From Gammaproteobacteria bacterium (lineage in GTDB: Bacteria > Pseudomonadota > Gammaproteobacteria > JAABTG01), in contig JAXHLS010000002.1 of the NCBI GenBank assembly GCA_034522055.1, forward strand, positions 1,302,001 to 1,366,000: DNA of 64,000 nucleotides, written 5' to 3'. Both the position numbers and the translations under genes were made by a program. The notes under the pieces were generated by a model. That model searched no databases, was not told the origin of the DNA, and saw only the letters and a list, made by a program, of their open reading frames with translations. Positions 10,630 through 45,227 of the stretch are shown piece by piece. Each line of letters starts with the position of its first letter. Position 1 is the stretch's first letter.

Positions 10630-11310
10630 ATGTCCGAAGAGGCTTTGCGGGGCTTCCTGTCCCGGGGCGATCTGCTGGCGGCCTGGCTGGTGCTGGCCGC
10701 CATCTCCTGCGCCGTGCTGGTGGCCGACCTGCGGCGCAACAACGCCCATATCGCGCCCCTCATGAAGGTGGTGTGGTTCCTGACGGTGCTCTACTCCGGG
10801 CCCCTCGGCCTGCTCATCTACCGCTACTCGGGGCGCAAGGAGATCCCCAACGACTCCATCTGGCGCAAGGGCTTCCGCTCGGTGGCCCATTGCTACTCGG
10901 GCTGCGGTGCCGGCGAGGTGACGGGGATGATGGTCGCCGTGGGCCTGCTAGCCCTCGGCAGCTGGGGCGCGGCCCTCACCACCCTGGGCTTCGCCTACGT
11001 CTTCGGCTATGCCATGACCTTCGGGCCCCTGGTCCAGGCGGGCACGCCGGTGAGGCGGGCCCTCATCGACACCTTCTACGCCGACACCGCCACCATCGCC
11101 GTCATGGAGGTAACGGCCATCGGCGTGGATCTGTGGCTCGCGGCCGCGGCCACCATGGGCGACATCCTGTTCTGGACCTCCCTCATCGTATCCCTGACCA
11201 TCGGGCTGGTGGCGGCCTATCCCGTCAACCTCCTGCTCATCGCCCTCGGCGTGAAGGGCGGCATGGGGGACCCCCGGGATACCGAAGGCGGGCACGCCCA
11301 CGCCGACTGA
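10630..11310 (+). CDS. DUF4396-domain membrane protein
   Basis: The 226-residue polytopic inner-membrane protein has about five or six hydrophobic helices (AWLVLAAISCAVLVADL, VVWFLTVLYSGPLGLLIY, VTGMMVAVGLLALGSW and others) and a His-rich C-terminal tail (GGHAHAD). The motif RSVAHCYSGCGAGEVTG is characteristic of DUF4396, a family of unknown function sometimes linked with copper or redox genes. GGAGG lies 6 bases before the ATG. Its function is not known. Confidence 0.7.
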   Translation: MSEEALRGFLSRGDLLAAWLVLAAISCAVLVADLRRNNAHIAPLMKVVWFLTVLYSGPLGLLIYRYSGRKEIPNDSIWRKGFRSVAHCYSGCGAGEVTGMMVAVGLLALGSWGAALTTLGFAYVFGYAMTFGPLVQAGTPVRRALIDTFYADTATIAVMEVTAIGVDLWLAAAATMGDILFWTSLIVSLTIGLVAAYPVNLLLIALGVKGGMGDPRDTEGGHAHAD

Positions 11311-37575: not shown

Positions 37576-38907
37576 ATGCGGACTCCTTTCACCATATTCA
37601 CGGCACTGTCCATGGTCAGCGTCGGCGCGACGGCGACGCCGCCGAATTTTTCTTCCGATCTGCAGGCGGTAGGTGCGAACGGCGTGCAGGATGCCATCGG
37701 ATTCCTGGTCGGGAGTGTGTGTCCGCGGGGAGTGCCGGGACTGGGTGGTGACCTCATCGGCGTGCAGGATCCCGACTTCCAGGACCGTTGCACGGATATC
37801 GTCGTCGCCGGCGTGCCGGCGGTGGCCGGCACGGACCCCGCCGCGGCCCGGGAAGGCCTGCAGAGCATGGCTTCCGAGGAGAACTCCGCGGTGGCCAGCA
37901 CCGAGGTGGACTTCTCCGGCGAGCATCAGGGCCGCATCGGCAAGCGCATGGCAAACCTGAGAGCCGGCATGCCATCCAACACCGTGGCCCTGGTGGGCAT
38001 CCCCCTCGCGGGCGGCAACGCGGGCGCCGGCATGGGCCGCTGGAGCGCCTTCGTGGATGGGACCTACGGCGACGGCGACAAGGACGGCACGAGCCTCGAG
38101 ACGGGCTTCGACCTGGACAGCCGCGGCGTCACGGTCGGCCTGGACTACCAATCGGACGCCAGGACCGTGATCGGCATCGCGGTGGGCTATACGGATCTGG
38201 AAGCGGATCTCAGCAACAACGCCGGTGAACTCGACACCGATTCCGTGGGCGTCTTCCTGTATGGCACCTACTTTGGCTCAGGGAACTGGTACCTGGATGG
38301 TGTCCTCGGCTACACCAGAAACGATCATGACCAGGAACGGCGCCTCGACTACACCATCGGCGCCACCCCCGTCGACCAGGTGGCCTCTTCCAGCAACGAC
38401 AGTGACGAACTCAGTGTCGGCCTCACGGCCGGCTACAACCTGTCCGGCGGTGCCTGGAACCTGAGTCCCTATGGCCGCATCGACTACGCCGACGTGGACA
38501 TCGACGGCTACCGGGAGCGCATGTCCAACCCGGGCGCGCCCGGCAATGGCCTGGCCGTCCAGATTGACGACCAGGATTATCAATCCCTTACCCTGGCCTT
38601 GGGCCTGAGCGCCTATACGGAATGGCAGGGAAACGGCATCCTCTGGGTCCCCCAGCTGACCGCGGAATATGTCCATGAGTTCGACAACGATAACGAGGAC
38701 ATCACGGGTTCCTTCGCCAGCGAAGTAACAGGCACCAAGTTTACCATCCCGACGGAAGAGCCCGACAGAAACTACTTCAATGTCGGTGTCGGGTTTACCG
38801 GCTTCGTCGGAGACGCCACCAGCGTCTATGTTCAGTATTCCTCCCAGCTGGGTTACCGAGACCAGGATCTGAATCAATATAAACTGGGGCTCAGGGTCGA
38901 TTTCTGA
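37576..38907 (+). CDS. Outer-membrane autotransporter-type beta-barrel protein
   Basis: A 443-residue secreted protein. Residues 1-21 look like a signal peptide ending ATATP, about 22-150 form a short passenger with two Cys (VCPRG, DRCTD), and the last 280 residues are an autotransporter-like barrel with alternating strands (RWSAFVDGTYGDGDKDGT, GYTRNDHDQERRLDY, LSPYGRIDYADVDIDGY) ending in LGLRVDF with a terminal Phe, the usual BAM signal. The passenger is too short for an adhesin of common size. It is divergent from the FecR-domain gene, and its 3' end overlaps the convergent lipoprotein hydrolase by 34 bp. Confidence 0.82.
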   Translation: MRTPFTIFTALSMVSVGATATPPNFSSDLQAVGANGVQDAIGFLVGSVCPRGVPGLGGDLIGVQDPDFQDRCTDIVVAGVPAVAGTDPAAAREGLQSMASEENSAVASTEVDFSGEHQGRIGKRMANLRAGMPSNTVALVGIPLAGGNAGAGMGRWSAFVDGTYGDGDKDGTSLETGFDLDSRGVTVGLDYQSDARTVIGIAVGYTDLEADLSNNAGELDTDSVGVFLYGTYFGSGNWYLDGVLGYTRNDHDQERRLDYTIGATPVDQVASSSNDSDELSVGLTAGYNLSGGAWNLSPYGRIDYADVDIDGYRERMSNPGAPGNGLAVQIDDQDYQSLTLALGLSAYTEWQGNGILWVPQLTAEYVHEFDNDNEDITGSFASEVTGTKFTIPTEEPDRNYFNVGVGFTGFVGDATSVYVQYSSQLGYRDQDLNQYKLGLRVDF

Positions 38908-39881
38908 TAGCCGCGGATGCCCTGACCACGGCTAGGTGAACTCACCTCCGGCTCCCCTTCCGGGCTATCCGTAATGCAGAGTTCCCGCGGGAGAACCGGC
39001 TCCCGCAAATGGTCGATGAGAAGCCTGGCAGCGCCTTCGCAAGCGGCGTCGTCGCCCAGCCAGCAGACAGGCAGGGGCCAGACATCCACCCAGCAGCACC
39101 GGTGATCGGTTCGAGACAGCATGCACATGCGGGCGCCGGATCGTGCCGCAACGAAACGCCTGGTCCATTCCGCCAGCACGTTTTCATCTTTCTCTCCCAC
39201 CAGGTGCAGCCTCGGCATCCCCGGCGGTAGCGGCGGGCGGCGGGCAGGGTCTAGTGAACCCTCCAGGGCGCTGTAGCCGTGGTGTCGGGTCCACGCCCCC
39301 AGGTCCAGGTTGCCGGCCAGGGTGATCACCCCCGCCACGCCGTCCAGCACTTCCGCCACCAGGACCGCCAGGGTGCCGCCGCCGCTGTGCCCCACCAGGA
39401 TCACCCGGGCCGGCACGCCCTCCGGCTCCCGGCGTTCGTCTTCGATCACGGCGGCCAGGCTGGCCACCACCTCCGGGCTATAGCGTCGCCCCGTCCAGTA
39501 GGCGGGCGCACAGCCTTCATCGCGGGCCAGGCCGTGGTAGCACGGCCGCCCCACCATCACCGCGGCCCCCGGATCCCTGGCCATCAGTTTCAGCACCAGG
39601 GACTCGTCCGGCGTGGGATCCAGGGCGATACGGCGTGGATTCACCCACGCCCGGCCATCCCCCCCAAGATAGACATGCAGTATCCCATCCGCCGCCAGGG
39701 GCCGCCCGCGGAACACCACGTGACGAAACCCCGTCCCCTGACGTACCGCGGCCTCGAAGCCCGCATCCCGGGCCTGCTCCTGGATGGCGCCAGAGGGTGC
39801 CGCGCACCCCCCGCCTACTACGAGGGCCCCGAGGATGACCAGGATGATAGCCGGCCTCCGCGACCACGGGGACGGGACCAC
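38874..39881 (-). CDS. Alpha/beta-hydrolase lipoprotein
   Basis: A 335-residue protein with a lipoprotein signal (IILVILGALVVGGGCAAPSG, lipobox Cys near residue 26) and an alpha/beta-hydrolase core: nucleophile elbow VGHSGGGTLA (about residue 165) and VITLAGNLDLGAWT. Cys pairs occur near YHGLARDEGCAPAYW and HRCCWVDVWPLPVCW. Substrate unknown; the periplasmic face is inferred from the lipobox. The N-terminus overlaps the 3' end of the upstream Gly/Tyr-rich gene by 64 bp, with no alternative start before the lipobox. It is tail-to-tail with the barrel gene. Confidence 0.75.
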   Translation of the reverse strand: MVPSPWSRRPAIILVILGALVVGGGCAAPSGAIQEQARDAGFEAAVRQGTGFRHVVFRGRPLAADGILHVYLGGDGRAWVNPRRIALDPTPDESLVLKLMARDPGAAVMVGRPCYHGLARDEGCAPAYWTGRRYSPEVVASLAAVIEDERREPEGVPARVILVGHSGGGTLAVLVAEVLDGVAGVITLAGNLDLGAWTRHHGYSALEGSLDPARRPPLPPGMPRLHLVGEKDENVLAEWTRRFVAARSGARMCMLSRTDHRCCWVDVWPLPVCWLGDDAACEGAARLLIDHLREPVLPRELCITDSPEGEPEVSSPSRGQGIRGYQKSTLSPSLY

Positions 39882-40858
39882 AGACCGGCGTCCCTAACGC
39901 GGCGCATCGCCCCCGGACGGCCAGCGCCCGCCATGGGGCAGGTCGCGCGGCGTCGGGGCCGTCCCTCGATCCCGCGGGGCGGTCCACCACGCCCGCCCTG
40001 GTCCGTTCGCCGGGAGCGGTCGGGCCAGTCGATGGCCGCCGGCGGCAGGTCCGCCCCCGGTGCCGACTCCGTGAAACCTTCCCGGCGCAGCGGGCGGTCA
40101 TACCCCGTGGGCGCCCCCCATCCCGAGACGTTGCCGGAACGGGTTCCCTGCCAGGTGCCGTCGCCACGGCCCCCCTCCCCCCAGCCTGATTCGGGAGACG
40201 GCGCCGCCGGCTCCGCCGGGGGCCACGCCGAACCCTCGTCACCATCCCAGGGGACGGAGCGGGATGACCCGGTGACGCCATCATCACGGGGCGCCGGGTC
40301 CAACCATGGGTCCCTCACCCCCGTACCCGGGACGGGTTCGACGGGTGAGCGGCGGGAACGGCCAGCATCATCGGCCCGGCGTTTACGATTGACGTCCCCG
40401 GGCCGTGGGGTCGGTTCCCAACCGTAACCCGGGGCGCCCTGCCCGTGGGACGGCAGGCCGGAGGCCGGTGCGTAGCCCGGGGGATAGGCCGATGAAGAAC
40501 CACCGCCGTAGGGGGCCCCGTGACCGTAGCCCGCCGGGGCGTGACCCTGCCCATAACCATACCCGGTGCCATAACCTGGGCCATAACCCGGGCCATAACC
40601 GGCGCCATAACCGGGGCCATAGCCAGTACCGGTGCCATAACCGGGTACATAGGCCTGGCCGTGACCCGGCACTCCGGAATGAAGACCGGGGGCACCATAA
40701 CCATAGCCTTCATCATATCCACGACGATCCATCCAGCGCGTCGGGTTCATCCAACTCATGGGATTAAAGCCCTGGGCCACGACCGCTGCCGGCATTACCC
40801 ATGAAGCAGTGACCACCACCATCGCCAACCTCAGCAGATTTCTGAAATTCAATGACAT
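39818..40858 (-). CDS. Secreted Gly/Tyr-rich repeat protein, sulfur-globule-protein-like
   Basis: The 346-residue protein has a clear signal peptide (LLRLAMVVVTASWVMPAAVVAQ), then GFNPMSWMNPTRWMDRRGYD, then a repeat block of about 60 residues built from PGYG/TGYG/AGYG units, and a disordered C-terminal half rich in Pro, Arg, Gly and Trp. Gly/Tyr repeats after a signal peptide are the hallmark of sulfur globule envelope proteins (SgpA/B/C of Allochromatium), which fits an aprMBA-bearing organism. The assignment is by composition only; other secreted GYG-repeat proteins exist. The long tail is unlike typical Sgp. ATG 40858 follows GAGGAG and starts the signal peptide, so the longer frame is rejected. 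Confidence 0.6.
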   Translation of the reverse strand: MSLNFRNLLRLAMVVVTASWVMPAAVVAQGFNPMSWMNPTRWMDRRGYDEGYGYGAPGLHSGVPGHGQAYVPGYGTGTGYGPGYGAGYGPGYGPGYGTGYGYGQGHAPAGYGHGAPYGGGSSSAYPPGYAPASGLPSHGQGAPGYGWEPTPRPGDVNRKRRADDAGRSRRSPVEPVPGTGVRDPWLDPAPRDDGVTGSSRSVPWDGDEGSAWPPAEPAAPSPESGWGEGGRGDGTWQGTRSGNVSGWGAPTGYDRPLRREGFTESAPGADLPPAAIDWPDRSRRTDQGGRGGPPRGIEGRPRRRATCPMAGAGRPGAMRRVRDAGLWSRPRGRGGRLSSWSSSGPS

Positions 40859-41156
40859 ACTCCTCTGGCGTGGAATACACCTCCTCGGTCGCCCGACCCG
40901 GAGGCCCCATGGAGCGGCGGCTTCGGGCGCCGCGGGAAACGCACCACCGTTCACCATGAAATCAAAGCCTAGGTGCCCCGGGTCGCCAGATCAATCGCCC
41001 CGTCTCCCTCGCGGAACGCTCACCCCGGGGAGTTCCCCGGATGAGGCAGATCAATAGAGTCGACGGTTTGCGGCGGCATGGGCACCTCGGGGCTTGTGCC
41101 GCGTGCGCCGTGGCGCCAGACTTGCAGGGGTTGAGTTCCAAGGGGCATCAATCGAG
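40859..41156. promoter_or_regulatory. Divergent promoter region upstream of the V/A-ATPase operon
   Basis: A spacer of about 300 bp between the Gly/Tyr-rich gene and the first ATPase gene. It must hold both promoters. I see no strong sigma-70 pair, and the sequence remains GC-rich. The upstream end of the ATPase G/H frame extends into it but without homology before ATG 41157. Confidence 0.35.
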
Positions 41157-41477
41157 ATGGACAACACCCTGCAGCGGCTGCTCGACGCAGAGTCTGCGGC
41201 AGAAAAACTGGTGGAGGACGCCAGGACCAGGCGCGCCGCCATCACCCGCCAGGCGGTTGAGGAATCCCGGCGTGCCGAGCGCCGCTTCACCGATCGCGCC
41301 GCCGAGATCGACGACTCCTTCCTCGGCAAGGCACGGGAACGCGCCGAACAGAGCATCGCCGAGCTGCAGCGCCGCTACGACGAACGCACCAACGAGCTCC
41401 GCAAGGCGGCCTCCGCCCGCGAAGAGAACGCCGTAGAGGCCCTGTTCGAGGCCCTGACGGATCCCGACAAGGTCTGA
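41157..41477 (+). CDS. V/A-type ATPase G/H-like stalk subunit
   Basis: A 106-residue, almost wholly helical and highly charged protein (QRLLDAESAAEKLVEDARTR, RRAERRFTDRAAEID, RERAEQSIAELQRRYDERTN), as expected of the G/H subunit that pairs with subunit E in the peripheral stalk. The start is ATG 41157, immediately before the helix. It is the first of nine tightly spaced genes and lies 8 bp before the subunit C gene. Confidence 0.78.
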   Translation: MDNTLQRLLDAESAAEKLVEDARTRRAAITRQAVEESRRAERRFTDRAAEIDDSFLGKARERAEQSIAELQRRYDERTNELRKAASAREENAVEALFEALTDPDKV

Positions 41478-41485
41478 ACCTGAAC

Positions 41486-42508
41486 GTGTCCAACCCGGAC
41501 TATCTCAACGCCCGTATCACCCTGTTCAGATCGCGGATGATGGGCCCGGAGACCATAGAGCGGCTGATCTCCGAACCCCAGCCCGAGTACGACCTCATCA
41601 CCCAAATCGAGGGCATCGACGAGTTCATGGCCAGTGCGGCGGCGAGTACCGCCGCATTGGAACAAGCCTTCACCTCCCAGCTCATGGGGGAGGCGCAGAT
41701 CCTCATGCGCCCCATGACCGGACCCAGGCGTCGCTTCATGCGCTCCGTCATGCACTGGTTCGAGCTGGCCAACCTCAAGGCCCTCATCCGCGGCAAGCTG
41801 TCCGGCATGTCCGATGCCGCCATCCGCGAGCACCTCGTGGACACGTCTCCCTTCAATACCCTGCCCATCGACGAGTTGTTACGCGCCGACGACCCGGCGG
41901 AGATGCTGCGCCTGTTGGAGGGCGGCCCCTACGGCGACATCGCCATTCAGGCCCGGCGCATCTACGAAGAGAAGCGCGATCCCTTCTCCCTCGAGGCCAC
42001 CATGGATCGGCGTTACTTCGTGGGGCTGCATCACCGCGCCGACGAAGTGGAGCGGGGGGAGCGGAACGCCCTGCTGCAACTCGTGAGTTGCCTCATCGAT
42101 CGCTTCAATCTGCTGTGGCTGTTGCGTTACCGCTTCGGCTACGGGATCTCGGCGGCGGAGACCTTCTATCTGCTCATTCCCCTGGGGCATTTACTCAACT
42201 CCGCCACCCTCGCGGAACTGGCGCGGCTGGGCTCCATGGCCGAGGTGTTGGAGGCCCTGCCGCCCGACCTGAAGCCCATGTTCGCCGGCGCCGACACCCT
42301 CACCGAGGTGGAGAACCGCATGGAGCAGCGCACCCGCGACACCATGAAGCGCGCTTTCGAACGCCATCGTTTCATCACGGCCCGGGTCTTCGCCTATGTG
42401 TTTCTTCGGGACATGGAACTGCGCCAGTTGCTGGCGGTCATCAAGGGCCGGCGTCTGGGCTTCGACCCCGAACTCATGGAGCTGGCGGTGAGTACGGGAC
42501 TGCACTAG
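41486..42508 (+). CDS. ntpC: V/A-type ATPase subunit C
   Basis: The 340-residue helical funnel-shaped subunit (subunit d/C) that couples the central stalk to the proteolipid ring. It shows PDYLNARITLFRSRMMGPE at the N-terminus, LANLKALIRGKLSG and the C-terminal LRDMELRQLLAVIKGRRLGF typical of this family. GTG start at 41486, 3 bp before the subunit I gene. The order C before I is not that of Enterococcus. Confidence 0.88.
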   Translation: MSNPDYLNARITLFRSRMMGPETIERLISEPQPEYDLITQIEGIDEFMASAAASTAALEQAFTSQLMGEAQILMRPMTGPRRRFMRSVMHWFELANLKALIRGKLSGMSDAAIREHLVDTSPFNTLPIDELLRADDPAEMLRLLEGGPYGDIAIQARRIYEEKRDPFSLEATMDRRYFVGLHHRADEVERGERNALLQLVSCLIDRFNLLWLLRYRFGYGISAAETFYLLIPLGHLLNSATLAELARLGSMAEVLEALPPDLKPMFAGADTLTEVENRMEQRTRDTMKRAFERHRFITARVFAYVFLRDMELRQLLAVIKGRRLGFDPELMELAVSTGLH

Positions 42509-42511
42509 GCC

Positions 42512-44398
42512 ATGTTCAGGCCCAAGACCATGTCCCGCATCAGCCTCCAGGTGCTCAACGAGGACGCCCCCAAGGTCACCCTGCTGCTGGCCCGGGCCGG
42601 GGTCTTCGATCCGGAACCCGTGGATGATCCCGAGGGCATGCTGCCGGAACAACCCGCCGAACGCTACCGCGCCGTGTATCAGTCGGCCCGGGCCCGCATG
42701 ACCAAACTGGAGGGCGCCCTCGGTTGCAGCGACGAGCCTGGCGATGACGAATTGCGGGTGGTGTCCCTGGAGGAGCTGAAGGCCCTGGACGCCCGCCTGC
42801 GCGCCCTCTGGCAGACCTTCTCGGGCCTCGATGAGCGGCGCCACCAGCTGGACGAGGAACGCACCACCCTGAAGCAGCTCGAACAGGGCCTCCAGATCTT
42901 TTCCGGATTGAGTGTTGACCTCGGCATGTTCCAGACCAGCGGCGGCTTTCTCACCCTGCGGGTGGGTACCGTGCCCACCATCAACCTCGACCGCCTGCAG
43001 GATGCCGCGACCCTGGCCGGGCACCTGGTGACCCCCTTCCACGAGGACAACCACCTGCACTACGTGGTGGTGGCCGGACCGGCCCAAGAGGCCCACGAGA
43101 TGGATACCCTGCTCCATACGGCATCCTTCCGCCCGGTAGCCATTCCCGCGGAGTTCAGGGACTTCCCCGAGAATATCCGCCAGGAGCTGGACCGCCGCCG
43201 CGACGAGATCGACTGGCGCGAAGGGGAATACGAGAGGGAACGGGACGGGCTCGCTGCGCAACACAAGGACGAAGTGATGGCCGCCTGCCGCACCCTGCAC
43301 ATGGCCCGGCCCTTCGCCGATCTCGCCCAGAAGCTGCGGGGCACGGGGGCCCTGGCGGTGGTGGAGGGCTGGATCCCCAGGGAACGGTTGGCGGAGCTGC
43401 AGCACACCTTCCACACCCTGCTGGATCGGCCCTTCGTTTTCGACGTCCGCGATCCGCGGCCCGACGAGCTTTCCAGGGTGCCCACCCTGGTCAGTTACTC
43501 CTGGCTCACCCGGCCTTTTGGCGCCCTGGTGAACAACTACGGTATTCCCCGCTACGGCGAACTCGATCCCACCCTGCTGTTCACGGCCAGCTTCATCGCC
43601 ATGTTCGGCATGATGTTCGGTGACATCGGCCACGGTGCCGTCATCGCCCTGGCCGGCATCGCAATGCGCCGCCGCTTCCCGCTGGTCACGCCCTTCATGT
43701 TGGCCACGGGGCTGTGTTCCGTGGGTTTCGGTTTCGTCTATGGCAGCATCTTCGGCTACGAGCACGTGATCCATCCCCTGTGGATATCACCCCTGTCCGA
43801 CCCCTTGCTGATGCTGGAGATAGCCCTCTACTGGGGAATCGGCTTCATCCTGGTGGCCAACGTCCTGACCATCATCAATAATCTGCTGTTCGGCGATGTG
43901 CCCGCGGCGTTGCTCGACACCAAGGGCGTGGCCGGCATCGCGCTCTATGTGGGGGGGATCCACGGCGCGCGCCAGTGGTTGGGCGGCGGACACCTGGGGT
44001 GGCTGGAGATGGCCTACGTGATCGTACCACTCGCCACAATCATGGGTTTCAAGTGGAGCCGCAACAGCGCCCCCGTGGGAGAACGCATGCTCATCGTCGC
44101 CATCGACGGCTTCGAGGCGGTGATGAATTACCTGGCCAACACCCTGTCGTTCCTGCGCGTCGCCGCCTTCAGCCTCAACCACGTGGCCCTGGCGGTGGCG
44201 GTGTTCACCCTGGCCGCCATGATGGATACCACGGGCCACTGGATAACCGTGGTCCTCGGCAATATCTTCATCATCGTATTGGAGGGGGCCATCGTCACCA
44301 TCCAGACCCTGCGTCTGGAGTACTACGAGGGTTTTTCGCGCTTTTTCCGGGGCGATGGCCGGGAGTTTCGCCCCCTGAGTTTCCATACCCGGGCCTAG
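42512..44398 (+). CDS. ntpI: V/A-type ATPase subunit I (a)
   Basis: The 628-residue stator subunit that forms the ion half-channels. The N-terminal half (about 1-320) is a soluble, coiled-coil-containing arm; the C-terminal half has seven to eight membrane helices starting at FIAMFGMMFGDIGHG. The essential Arg is visible in NTLSFLRVAAFSLNHVALAV (about residue 550). Length is within the family range (600-700). It follows subunit C by 3 bp, and a 53-bp gap with a partial dispersed repeat separates it from subunit K. Confidence 0.93.
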   Translation: MFRPKTMSRISLQVLNEDAPKVTLLLARAGVFDPEPVDDPEGMLPEQPAERYRAVYQSARARMTKLEGALGCSDEPGDDELRVVSLEELKALDARLRALWQTFSGLDERRHQLDEERTTLKQLEQGLQIFSGLSVDLGMFQTSGGFLTLRVGTVPTINLDRLQDAATLAGHLVTPFHEDNHLHYVVVAGPAQEAHEMDTLLHTASFRPVAIPAEFRDFPENIRQELDRRRDEIDWREGEYERERDGLAAQHKDEVMAACRTLHMARPFADLAQKLRGTGALAVVEGWIPRERLAELQHTFHTLLDRPFVFDVRDPRPDELSRVPTLVSYSWLTRPFGALVNNYGIPRYGELDPTLLFTASFIAMFGMMFGDIGHGAVIALAGIAMRRRFPLVTPFMLATGLCSVGFGFVYGSIFGYEHVIHPLWISPLSDPLLMLEIALYWGIGFILVANVLTIINNLLFGDVPAALLDTKGVAGIALYVGGIHGARQWLGGGHLGWLEMAYVIVPLATIMGFKWSRNSAPVGERMLIVAIDGFEAVMNYLANTLSFLRVAAFSLNHVALAVAVFTLAAMMDTTGHWITVVLGNIFIIVLEGAIVTIQTLRLEYYEGFSRFFRGDGREFRPLSFHTRA

Positions 44399-44415
44399 GG
44401 CCTGAATCGCGAGTT

Positions 44416-44444
44416 ATCGTGCTTCGCGACTTTTACGTTAAGGA
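44416..44444 (+). repeat. Truncated dispersed repeat carrying the subunit K ribosome site
   Basis: CGTGCTTCGCGACTTTTACG followed by TTAAGGAG matches the tail of the hairpin repeats at 10518-10572 and 61860-61914, but the CCCTCTCCC hairpin part is missing. The AAGGAG at the repeat end is the Shine-Dalgarno of the proteolipid gene starting at 44452. Confidence 0.65.
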
Positions 44445-44451
44445 GTAGACC

Positions 44452-44904
44452 ATGTACTGGCTAGTGGCACTGATGACGTTGACCACCGTGGGCATCATCG
44501 CCCTCGGTGTTTACTTCGAGTTGTATCCCCTCGGTTCGGAGCGGGCGAGCCCGCGCTGGTTGAAGGGCACCCTGGGCACCCAGCTCGTGGTCTTCGTGGC
44601 CGCCCAGGCCGGACTGCTGTTGCTCGGCGTGCAGGACGTCATGGCCCAGGCGCCCGTGGCCGAGGGCGCGGCCGCCGCTGAGATCACCGTTGGCATGGGG
44701 TTGGCCATCATCGGCGTCGGTATCCCCACCGCCGTGGCCACCATCGCGGCCGGTATCGCGGTGGGGCCGGTGGGTGCGGCCTCCCTCGCCGTCATCACCG
44801 AGAAACCCGAGCTGTTCGGCCGCACCCTCATCTACCTGGGGCTGGCGGAAGGCATCGCCATCTACGGCCTGGTGGTGACCATCCTGCTCCTCGGGCGCAT
44901 ATGA
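44452..44904 (+). CDS. ntpK: V/A-type ATPase proteolipid subunit K
   Basis: The 150-residue rotor-ring proteolipid. The C-terminal hairpin (about residues 75-150) is canonical, with a single ion-binding Glu in YLGLAEGIAIYGLVVTILLL. The N-terminal 65 residues add two more hydrophobic helices without an acidic residue, ending VMAQAP, which resembles a signal-peptide cleavage site. The Gln ligands that mark sodium-binding K subunits (PETQ-type motif) are absent, so proton coupling is more likely. Its start follows the repeat-derived AAGGAG. It overlaps the subunit F start as ATGA. Confidence 0.88.
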   Translation: MYWLVALMTLTTVGIIALGVYFELYPLGSERASPRWLKGTLGTQLVVFVAAQAGLLLLGVQDVMAQAPVAEGAAAAEITVGMGLAIIGVGIPTAVATIAAGIAVGPVGAASLAVITEKPELFGRTLIYLGLAEGIAIYGLVVTILLLGRI

Positions 44905-45227
44905 GCACACGCATCATCGCCATGGGCTCCGAGGCCCTGCTCGAGGGCTTCGCCCTGCTGGGGGTGGAGACCGTGGCCGATCCCTCGCCCCACGAGGTGG
45001 AGGAACTACTGCGCGGCCTCGCGGCCTCGGACGCCAGGGCCCTGGTGTTCCTCGAACACCAGGTGGCACGCGAGGCCGGCCAGGCCCTGGAAGACATCAG
45101 GAGGGAAGGAGGACGTATCGTGATCAGTGAGATCCCACCCCTCGAGGCGCCCGCCGATTACCGGCCGCCCGTGGAGGATCTGGTGATACGGGTGCTGGGT
45201 GCCTCAGCCCTGGAGAAACGCCCATGA
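44901..45227 (+). CDS. ntpG: V/A-type ATPase subunit F
   Basis: The 108-residue central-stalk subunit with a Rossmann-like fold: RIIAMGSEALLEGFALLGVE, ARALVFLEHQVA, GGRIVISEIPPLEAP. It regulates catalysis by contacting subunit D. It overlaps subunit K by 4 bp at its start and subunit E by 4 bp at its end. Confidence 0.85.
   Translation: MSTRIIAMGSEALLEGFALLGVETVADPSPHEVEELLRGLAASDARALVFLEHQVAREAGQALEDIRREGGRIVISEIPPLEAPADYRPPVEDLVIRVLGASALEKRP

Follow-up and report, generated by a model that had tools for sequence, protein, structure and literature searches.

A gene on the minus strand of the window (the whole stretch of 64,000 nucleotides that was analysed) encodes a protein under purifying selection, and this protein is read here, at a probability of about 0.45, as an accessory periplasmic coat protein that would work in the manner of the sulfur globule proteins (Sgp) without being one of them. 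It likely, although not certainly, belongs to an uncatalogued family in which a signal peptide is followed by the motif NMMNPSKW(F/M) and by GYG repeats, and every genome in which this family was retained also carries PF17228, the Pfam family of sulfur globule proteins (SGP).

To our knowledge, the wrapping and control of stored sulfur by bacteria is known mainly through SgpA-D of one purple bacterium and through one Beggiatoa protein. Were another exported family to track the globule proteins, its one short common motif would give concrete access to the question of how proteins hold on to a sulfur surface, an idea that is open to tagging in a cultured relative.

The features referred to below are the following, in which L006 is the locus of a same-genus relative.

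39818-40858, minus strand: candidate frame as first reported, 346 codons
39894..40858, minus strand: candidate gene in its best reading, with a frame change at 39991-39965 and a conserved stop at 39894-39896
40775..40858, minus strand: signal-peptide-like N-terminus (MSLNFRNLLRLAMVVVTASWVMPAAVVA), from the sequence and a model helix of pLDDT 75
40721..40768, minus strand: FNPMSWMNPTRWMDRR, the window version of the NMMNPSKW(F/M) family motif, from a profile excluding the candidate
40439..40720, minus strand: Gly/Tyr repeat block (PGYG/TGYG/AGYG) with 12 GYG; dN/dS 0.17 against L006
39989..40438, minus strand: Pro/Arg/Gly/Trp-rich C-terminal half, from the alignment with L006; dN/dS 0.49
39965..39991, minus strand: frame-shift interval relative to L006, from comparison with L006
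39894..39965, minus strand: conserved tail in the shifted frame (GTAPTPRDLPHGGRWPSGGDAPR, then stop), from the match to L006
38874..39881, minus strand: downstream gene for an alpha/beta-hydrolase-like lipoprotein, without overlap with the conserved candidate frame
41094..42508, plus strand: start of a divergent V-type ATPase operon, with genes for the G-like and AC39 subunits, from Pfam; conserved in L006
27339-29228: aprA, 1116.6 bits

A protein-coding gene with a shifted reading frame

Among 95 genomes, its own included, the candidate had one clear relative, which was found in the same genus with about 65-66% identity (L006). The dN/dS ratio between the two was 0.27 for the signal and motif, 0.17 for the repeats, and 0.49 for the C-terminal half, in which the conserved stretch GYDRPLRREGFTExAPGAxLPPAAIDWPDRS was recognised. 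Because these ratios were obtained against a 65%-identical relative, the frame codes for a protein and did not arise by chance. The alternative that GC-rich DNA was misread or is non-coding here, to which the long chance frames on the opposite strand and the break near the end of the reported frame might point, is hardly credible in view of dN/dS values that range over 0.17-0.49 for the three parts and fall to 0.15 for the tail, and of a GGAG-TTG start context common to L006; the selection test refutes it.

Past position 39991, L006 matched another frame of the window over 20 codons (85% identity, dN/dS 0.15), and this shifted-frame tail stops at 39894-39896, 12 nt ahead of the GTG of the lipoprotein gene (39881). 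The reading frame of the candidate thus shifts between 39991 and 39965, either by an assembly error or by a real mutation, and it is this shift that created the final ~55 residues of the frame as reported and made it overlap the lipoprotein gene. The original prediction had described a C-terminal half rich in Pro, Arg, Gly and Trp, a description that holds to about residue 290 and fails for those last residues. It had also taken the overlap with the lipoprotein hydrolase gene as a hint of coupled expression, and both claims fall with the frameshift, since the conserved stop lies short of the GTG and the lipoprotein gene is deleted in L006. In that comparison the matches jump from window position 39910 to 37127 (L006:4636-4638), and because the deletion removes the lipoprotein gene, coupling between the two genes is not conserved.

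The deletion, which ends beside the candidate stop, leaves L006 without the lipoprotein hydrolase, the autotransporter gene and a portion of the FecR gene. In the product of the autotransporter gene (37576-38907, plus strand), the beta-domain (PF03797, 202 bits) is accompanied by only a short N-terminal part; the gene is convergent with the lipoprotein hydrolase gene. Frameshifts were encountered at least twice within the motif family in the assemblies seen, that is, in the candidate and in the genome G266, in which GYG repeats lie out of frame with a doubled motif (L025/L048, G266:C138 about 10856-10981).

Translation of the candidate probably starts at the TTG at 40852 rather than at the ATG at 40858, because GGAG followed by a TTG at 7-8 nt is a context common to the candidate and to the L006 gene. 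A promoter scan for the candidate found none. About 291 residues precede the frame shift, with a mature part of 263, and their order is a signal-peptide-like stretch, QGFNPMSWMNPTRWMDRR, PGYG/TGYG/AGYG repeats and the Pro/Arg/Gly/Trp-rich half. The signal peptide, judged by eye and from the model helix, points to a predicted export design. The mature protein contains 12 GYG tripeptides, whereas 20000 shuffles gave 0.99 on average and never more than 8. A signal peptide followed by a PGYG/TGYG repeat block, as originally described, is thus borne out, and so is the short segment ahead of the repeats (FNPMSWMNPTRWM), which turned out to be the mark of the motif family. The repeat block comprises 36% G, 17% Y and 13% P, and the C-terminal half 13% R+K and 15% D+E. 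In an AlphaFold2 model built from only 2 sequences, the mean pLDDT was 42.1 and the signal helix alone was predicted to fold (pLDDT 75). Neither Pfam and NCBIfam scans, which assigned no family, nor a sequence search of the PDB gave a match for the candidate.

The NMMNPSKW(F/M)-GYG family

The plan of the family comprises a signal peptide, the motif (G)NMMNPSKW(F/M), a short charged or aromatic link, GYG repeats and a variable tail, the motif being mostly A-F-[DN]-[MF]-G-N-M-M-N-P-[SG]-[KRE]-W-[FM]. The set consists of 16 proteins from 13 genomes, including the candidate, which is longer than any of the other 15. In the family the 10-mer lies at about mature residue 6-8 and in the candidate at residue 7, followed in both cases by GYG repeats. 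The candidate differs in that its SWMNPTRWMD is without the GG and acidic stretch (DRRGYDE follows the motif) and in its long, Arg/Trp-rich tail, whereas the others end in a coil (several relatives, e.g. EIERLKQRIKKLEE) or in a short Pro-rich end. Since some other members likewise lack the GG link and the coil, these features were not taken as defining.

The candidate motif peptide alone matched a protein of G199 with an E-value of 0.0034 per genome over 369 genomes, which is not significant by itself; the N-terminus of the G199 protein, used as a query, matched G003, a genome of the window's own taxonomic family, at 8.9e-7 and the candidate at 0.001. A six-row profile that included the candidate reached 13 of the 369 genomes of the class at E <= 0.05. 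Eight of these were kept (G000, G001, G003, G066, G199, G266, G302 and G361). The matches in G202, G253, G296 and G363 (E 0.008-0.03) were dropped on inspection as lying in an unrelated enzyme frame or in frames of <=47 codons, and that in G057, in the same E range, was dropped as lying in a frame of 4185 codons. Within one order, a nine-row profile matched 9 of 23 genomes, 7 of them new.

Membership of the candidate was also assessed in a non-circular manner, with a profile built from 14 proteins that excluded the candidate and its ortholog. SWMNPTRWMD was the best of 1099 six-frame ORFs of the window, and its score was reached by 2 of 20000 shuffles of the candidate's own first 24 residues (12 of 20000 for the ortholog). 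The HMM version of the shuffle test gave 3 of 5000 for the candidate and 73 of 5000 for the ortholog; with an HMM that left both out, the candidate scored 16.5 bits against 14.7 for the best of 2000 shuffles, and the ortholog was not picked up at all. Because the match is weak, although above nearly all shuffles, and worse for the ortholog, membership is considered likely but not certain. For the motif relatives themselves, a Pfam scan of three found no convincing family, a plasmid search with one gave no match, and a literature search for the motif letters in one paper library gave none.

Relation to the sulfur globule proteins

That the organism is a sulfur oxidiser, as its apr genes had suggested, is supported by aprA in the window and by dsrA elsewhere in the genome. 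Four PF17228 matches were found in its own genome, all outside the candidate: C2:2515586 (L007, 59.3 bits), C6:638623 (44.1 bits), L011 (C2:1379972, 31.1 bits), which lies about 14 kb beyond the window, and L008 (22.3 bits, under the cut-off of 26.7 bits). Since the genome thus combines classical globule proteins with dsrA and aprA, the organism likely stores sulfur. A lake-sediment study names Gammaproteobacteria S21.Bin127, the genome to which L006 seems to belong, as one of those that metabolise elemental sulfur (PMC9426519).

The candidate itself was tried as a PF17228 member and rejected. Its own-genome paralogues L007, L011 and L008 match the profile, whereas the candidate gave no match at E <= 1 (family cut-off 26.7 bits), nor did three motif relatives. 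The assignment to a sulfur-globule type stood for the Gly/Tyr repeats and for a motif family seen together with PF17228, and not for membership, the comparison with the Sgp family having failed on this profile. Likenesses to PF17228 proteins are the signal peptide, the Gly/Tyr/Pro-rich repeats, the exported design, the occurrence in sulfur oxidisers and a repeat-block composition close to what the PF17228 proteins of this genome show (G 22-38, Y 13-16, P 12-13%). The differences are considerable. The N-terminal core of the genome's PF17228 members, WW.GPGYGGGPWSGWGDGFGDMFG, is not in the candidate, which has the Met/Trp motif, and the motif of its family is not in the four PF17228 paralogues; three of L007, L008, L009 and L011 have the core WWGGPGYGGGPWSGWGDGFGDMFG, and L009 only part of it. 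The mature candidate has 263 residues before the shift, compared with 85-110, and its C-terminal half is charged, whereas R+K and D+E amount to 1-5% each in the PF17228 paralogues of this genome. The GRAVY of the mature candidate (-1.03 versus -0.43 to -0.75) likewise indicates a more charged and less hydrophobic protein. The small size and few charged residues expected of an Sgp were not found in it. A true but highly diverged Sgp of the SgpA, B or C type, which the signal peptide, the GYG repeats and the four own-genome matches of similar repeat composition would suit, is accordingly improbable, given that no PF17228 match was obtained at E <= 1 for the candidate and none for the three relatives, that the core WWGGPGYGGGPWSGWGDGFGDMFG is lacking, and that the paralogues are without the motif.

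The Sgp proteins of A. vinosum are given as 11-13 kDa, and known Sgp proteins as a thin protein envelope on the globules (PMC10386293). SgpD of Allochromatium vinosum, as described there, shares with the candidate a signal peptide, repeats with spaced prolines and a place outside SgpA-C, and is associated with globules. By the same description SgpD is in part helical and occurs almost exclusively in Chromatiaceae, whereas the candidate is without a coil; several motif relatives, unlike the candidate, end in one. In Beggiatoa leptomitoformis, a transposon in one Sgp-type gene is reported to coincide with cells no longer storing sulfur or growing lithotrophically (PMC7356093).

Matches through GYG alone (L003-L005, in G013, G047 and G052, which carry PF17228) were rejected as relatives, being Gly/Tyr-rich exported proteins whose similarity is confined to the repeats. 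In one of them, in G052 (L003:1444-2151), a PF17228 part and a helical part form one protein, and one query matches both. At L007:724-1839 (G000:C2 about 2514866-2515879), a separate gene downstream of the PF17228 gene, in the same orientation, encodes an exported helical protein. This arrangement resembles a split or fusion, by which the helical protein would be linked to globules.

Among the 369 genomes of the class, PF17228 was found in 56 and dsrA (E <= 1e-60) in 117. All 8 genomes with the motif carry PF17228, at other loci in the rows listed, and no motif carrier without PF17228 was found, the five dropped matches aside; with these counted in, PF17228 is present in 8 of 13. The hypergeometric probability by genome was 1.8e-7 for PF17228 and 0.0017 for dsrA, on genomes that are related to one another; by family it was about 0.004 (motif families 3 of 3, against 27 PF17228-positive families), assuming 157-180 families in the sample. 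The further motif genomes from the order of G361 were PF17228-positive in 7 of 7 cases, and these add no contrast because all 20 genomes tested in that order carry PF17228. As for dsrA, it was present in 7 of the 8 motif genomes, with only a partial match under the cut-off in G266 and none in G003. The motif family occurs in only 8 of the 56 PF17228 genomes, and it is therefore not needed for globules. The co-occurrence of the motif family with PF17228 is an association and not a proof.

The same counts bear on another explanation, namely that the candidate is a general structural protein of the periplasm or cell surface of sulfur oxidisers (matrix, adhesive or outer-envelope filler), with Gly/Tyr repeats that self-associate away from sulfur and a co-occurrence with Sgp that reflects shared lineage and lifestyle. 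Its chance is appreciable, if short of even, with the motif family present in only three families of the sample, a charged and hydrophilic candidate tail, a gene that stands alone between the V-type ATPase operon and unrelated genes, and a motif carrier, G003, that has no dsrA. What speaks against it is PF17228 in 8/8 carriers compared with 56/369 genomes, no PF17228-free carrier having been found.

Proposed role and genomic surroundings

If the candidate is an accessory coat protein of the periplasm, it may represent a second kind of globule coat. The largely disordered, Gly/Tyr-rich protein would be exported by Sec to the periplasm, where the Met/Trp motif (NMMNPSKWF, in the candidate SWMNPTRWM), placed directly after signal cleavage, would anchor it to a hydrophobic surface, most likely that of a sulfur globule. 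The Gly/Tyr repeats may then adhere to each other and to Sgp proteins, giving a flexible coat, and the tail, which is charged and of Pro/Arg/Trp type in the candidate and a coil in several relatives, would face outward as a spacer or contact. Extended beyond this genome, the same view leads to a tentative suggestion: the globules of several gammaproteobacterial lineages may bear a second family of coat proteins, uncatalogued and without relation to SgpA-C, that docks on the sulfur surface through the Met/Trp motif (NMMNPSKWF) and has a lineage-specific tail.

When the gene neighbours of the motif-family genes were compared across families, none was conserved; within the genus, the conserved neighbour of the candidate gene in L006 is the divergent V-type ATPase operon. 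In G066 (L044), an operon of the PhsA/DmsA molybdopterin oxidoreductase group lies upstream of the motif gene in the same orientation; its oxidoreductase scores 457 bits against PhsA (cut-off 694), and the operon is taken as weak context only for the motif gene. The V-type ATPase operon of the window extends over 41094-45227 on the plus strand, in a sulfur oxidiser, and includes a large membrane subunit and a proteolipid recognised by eye.
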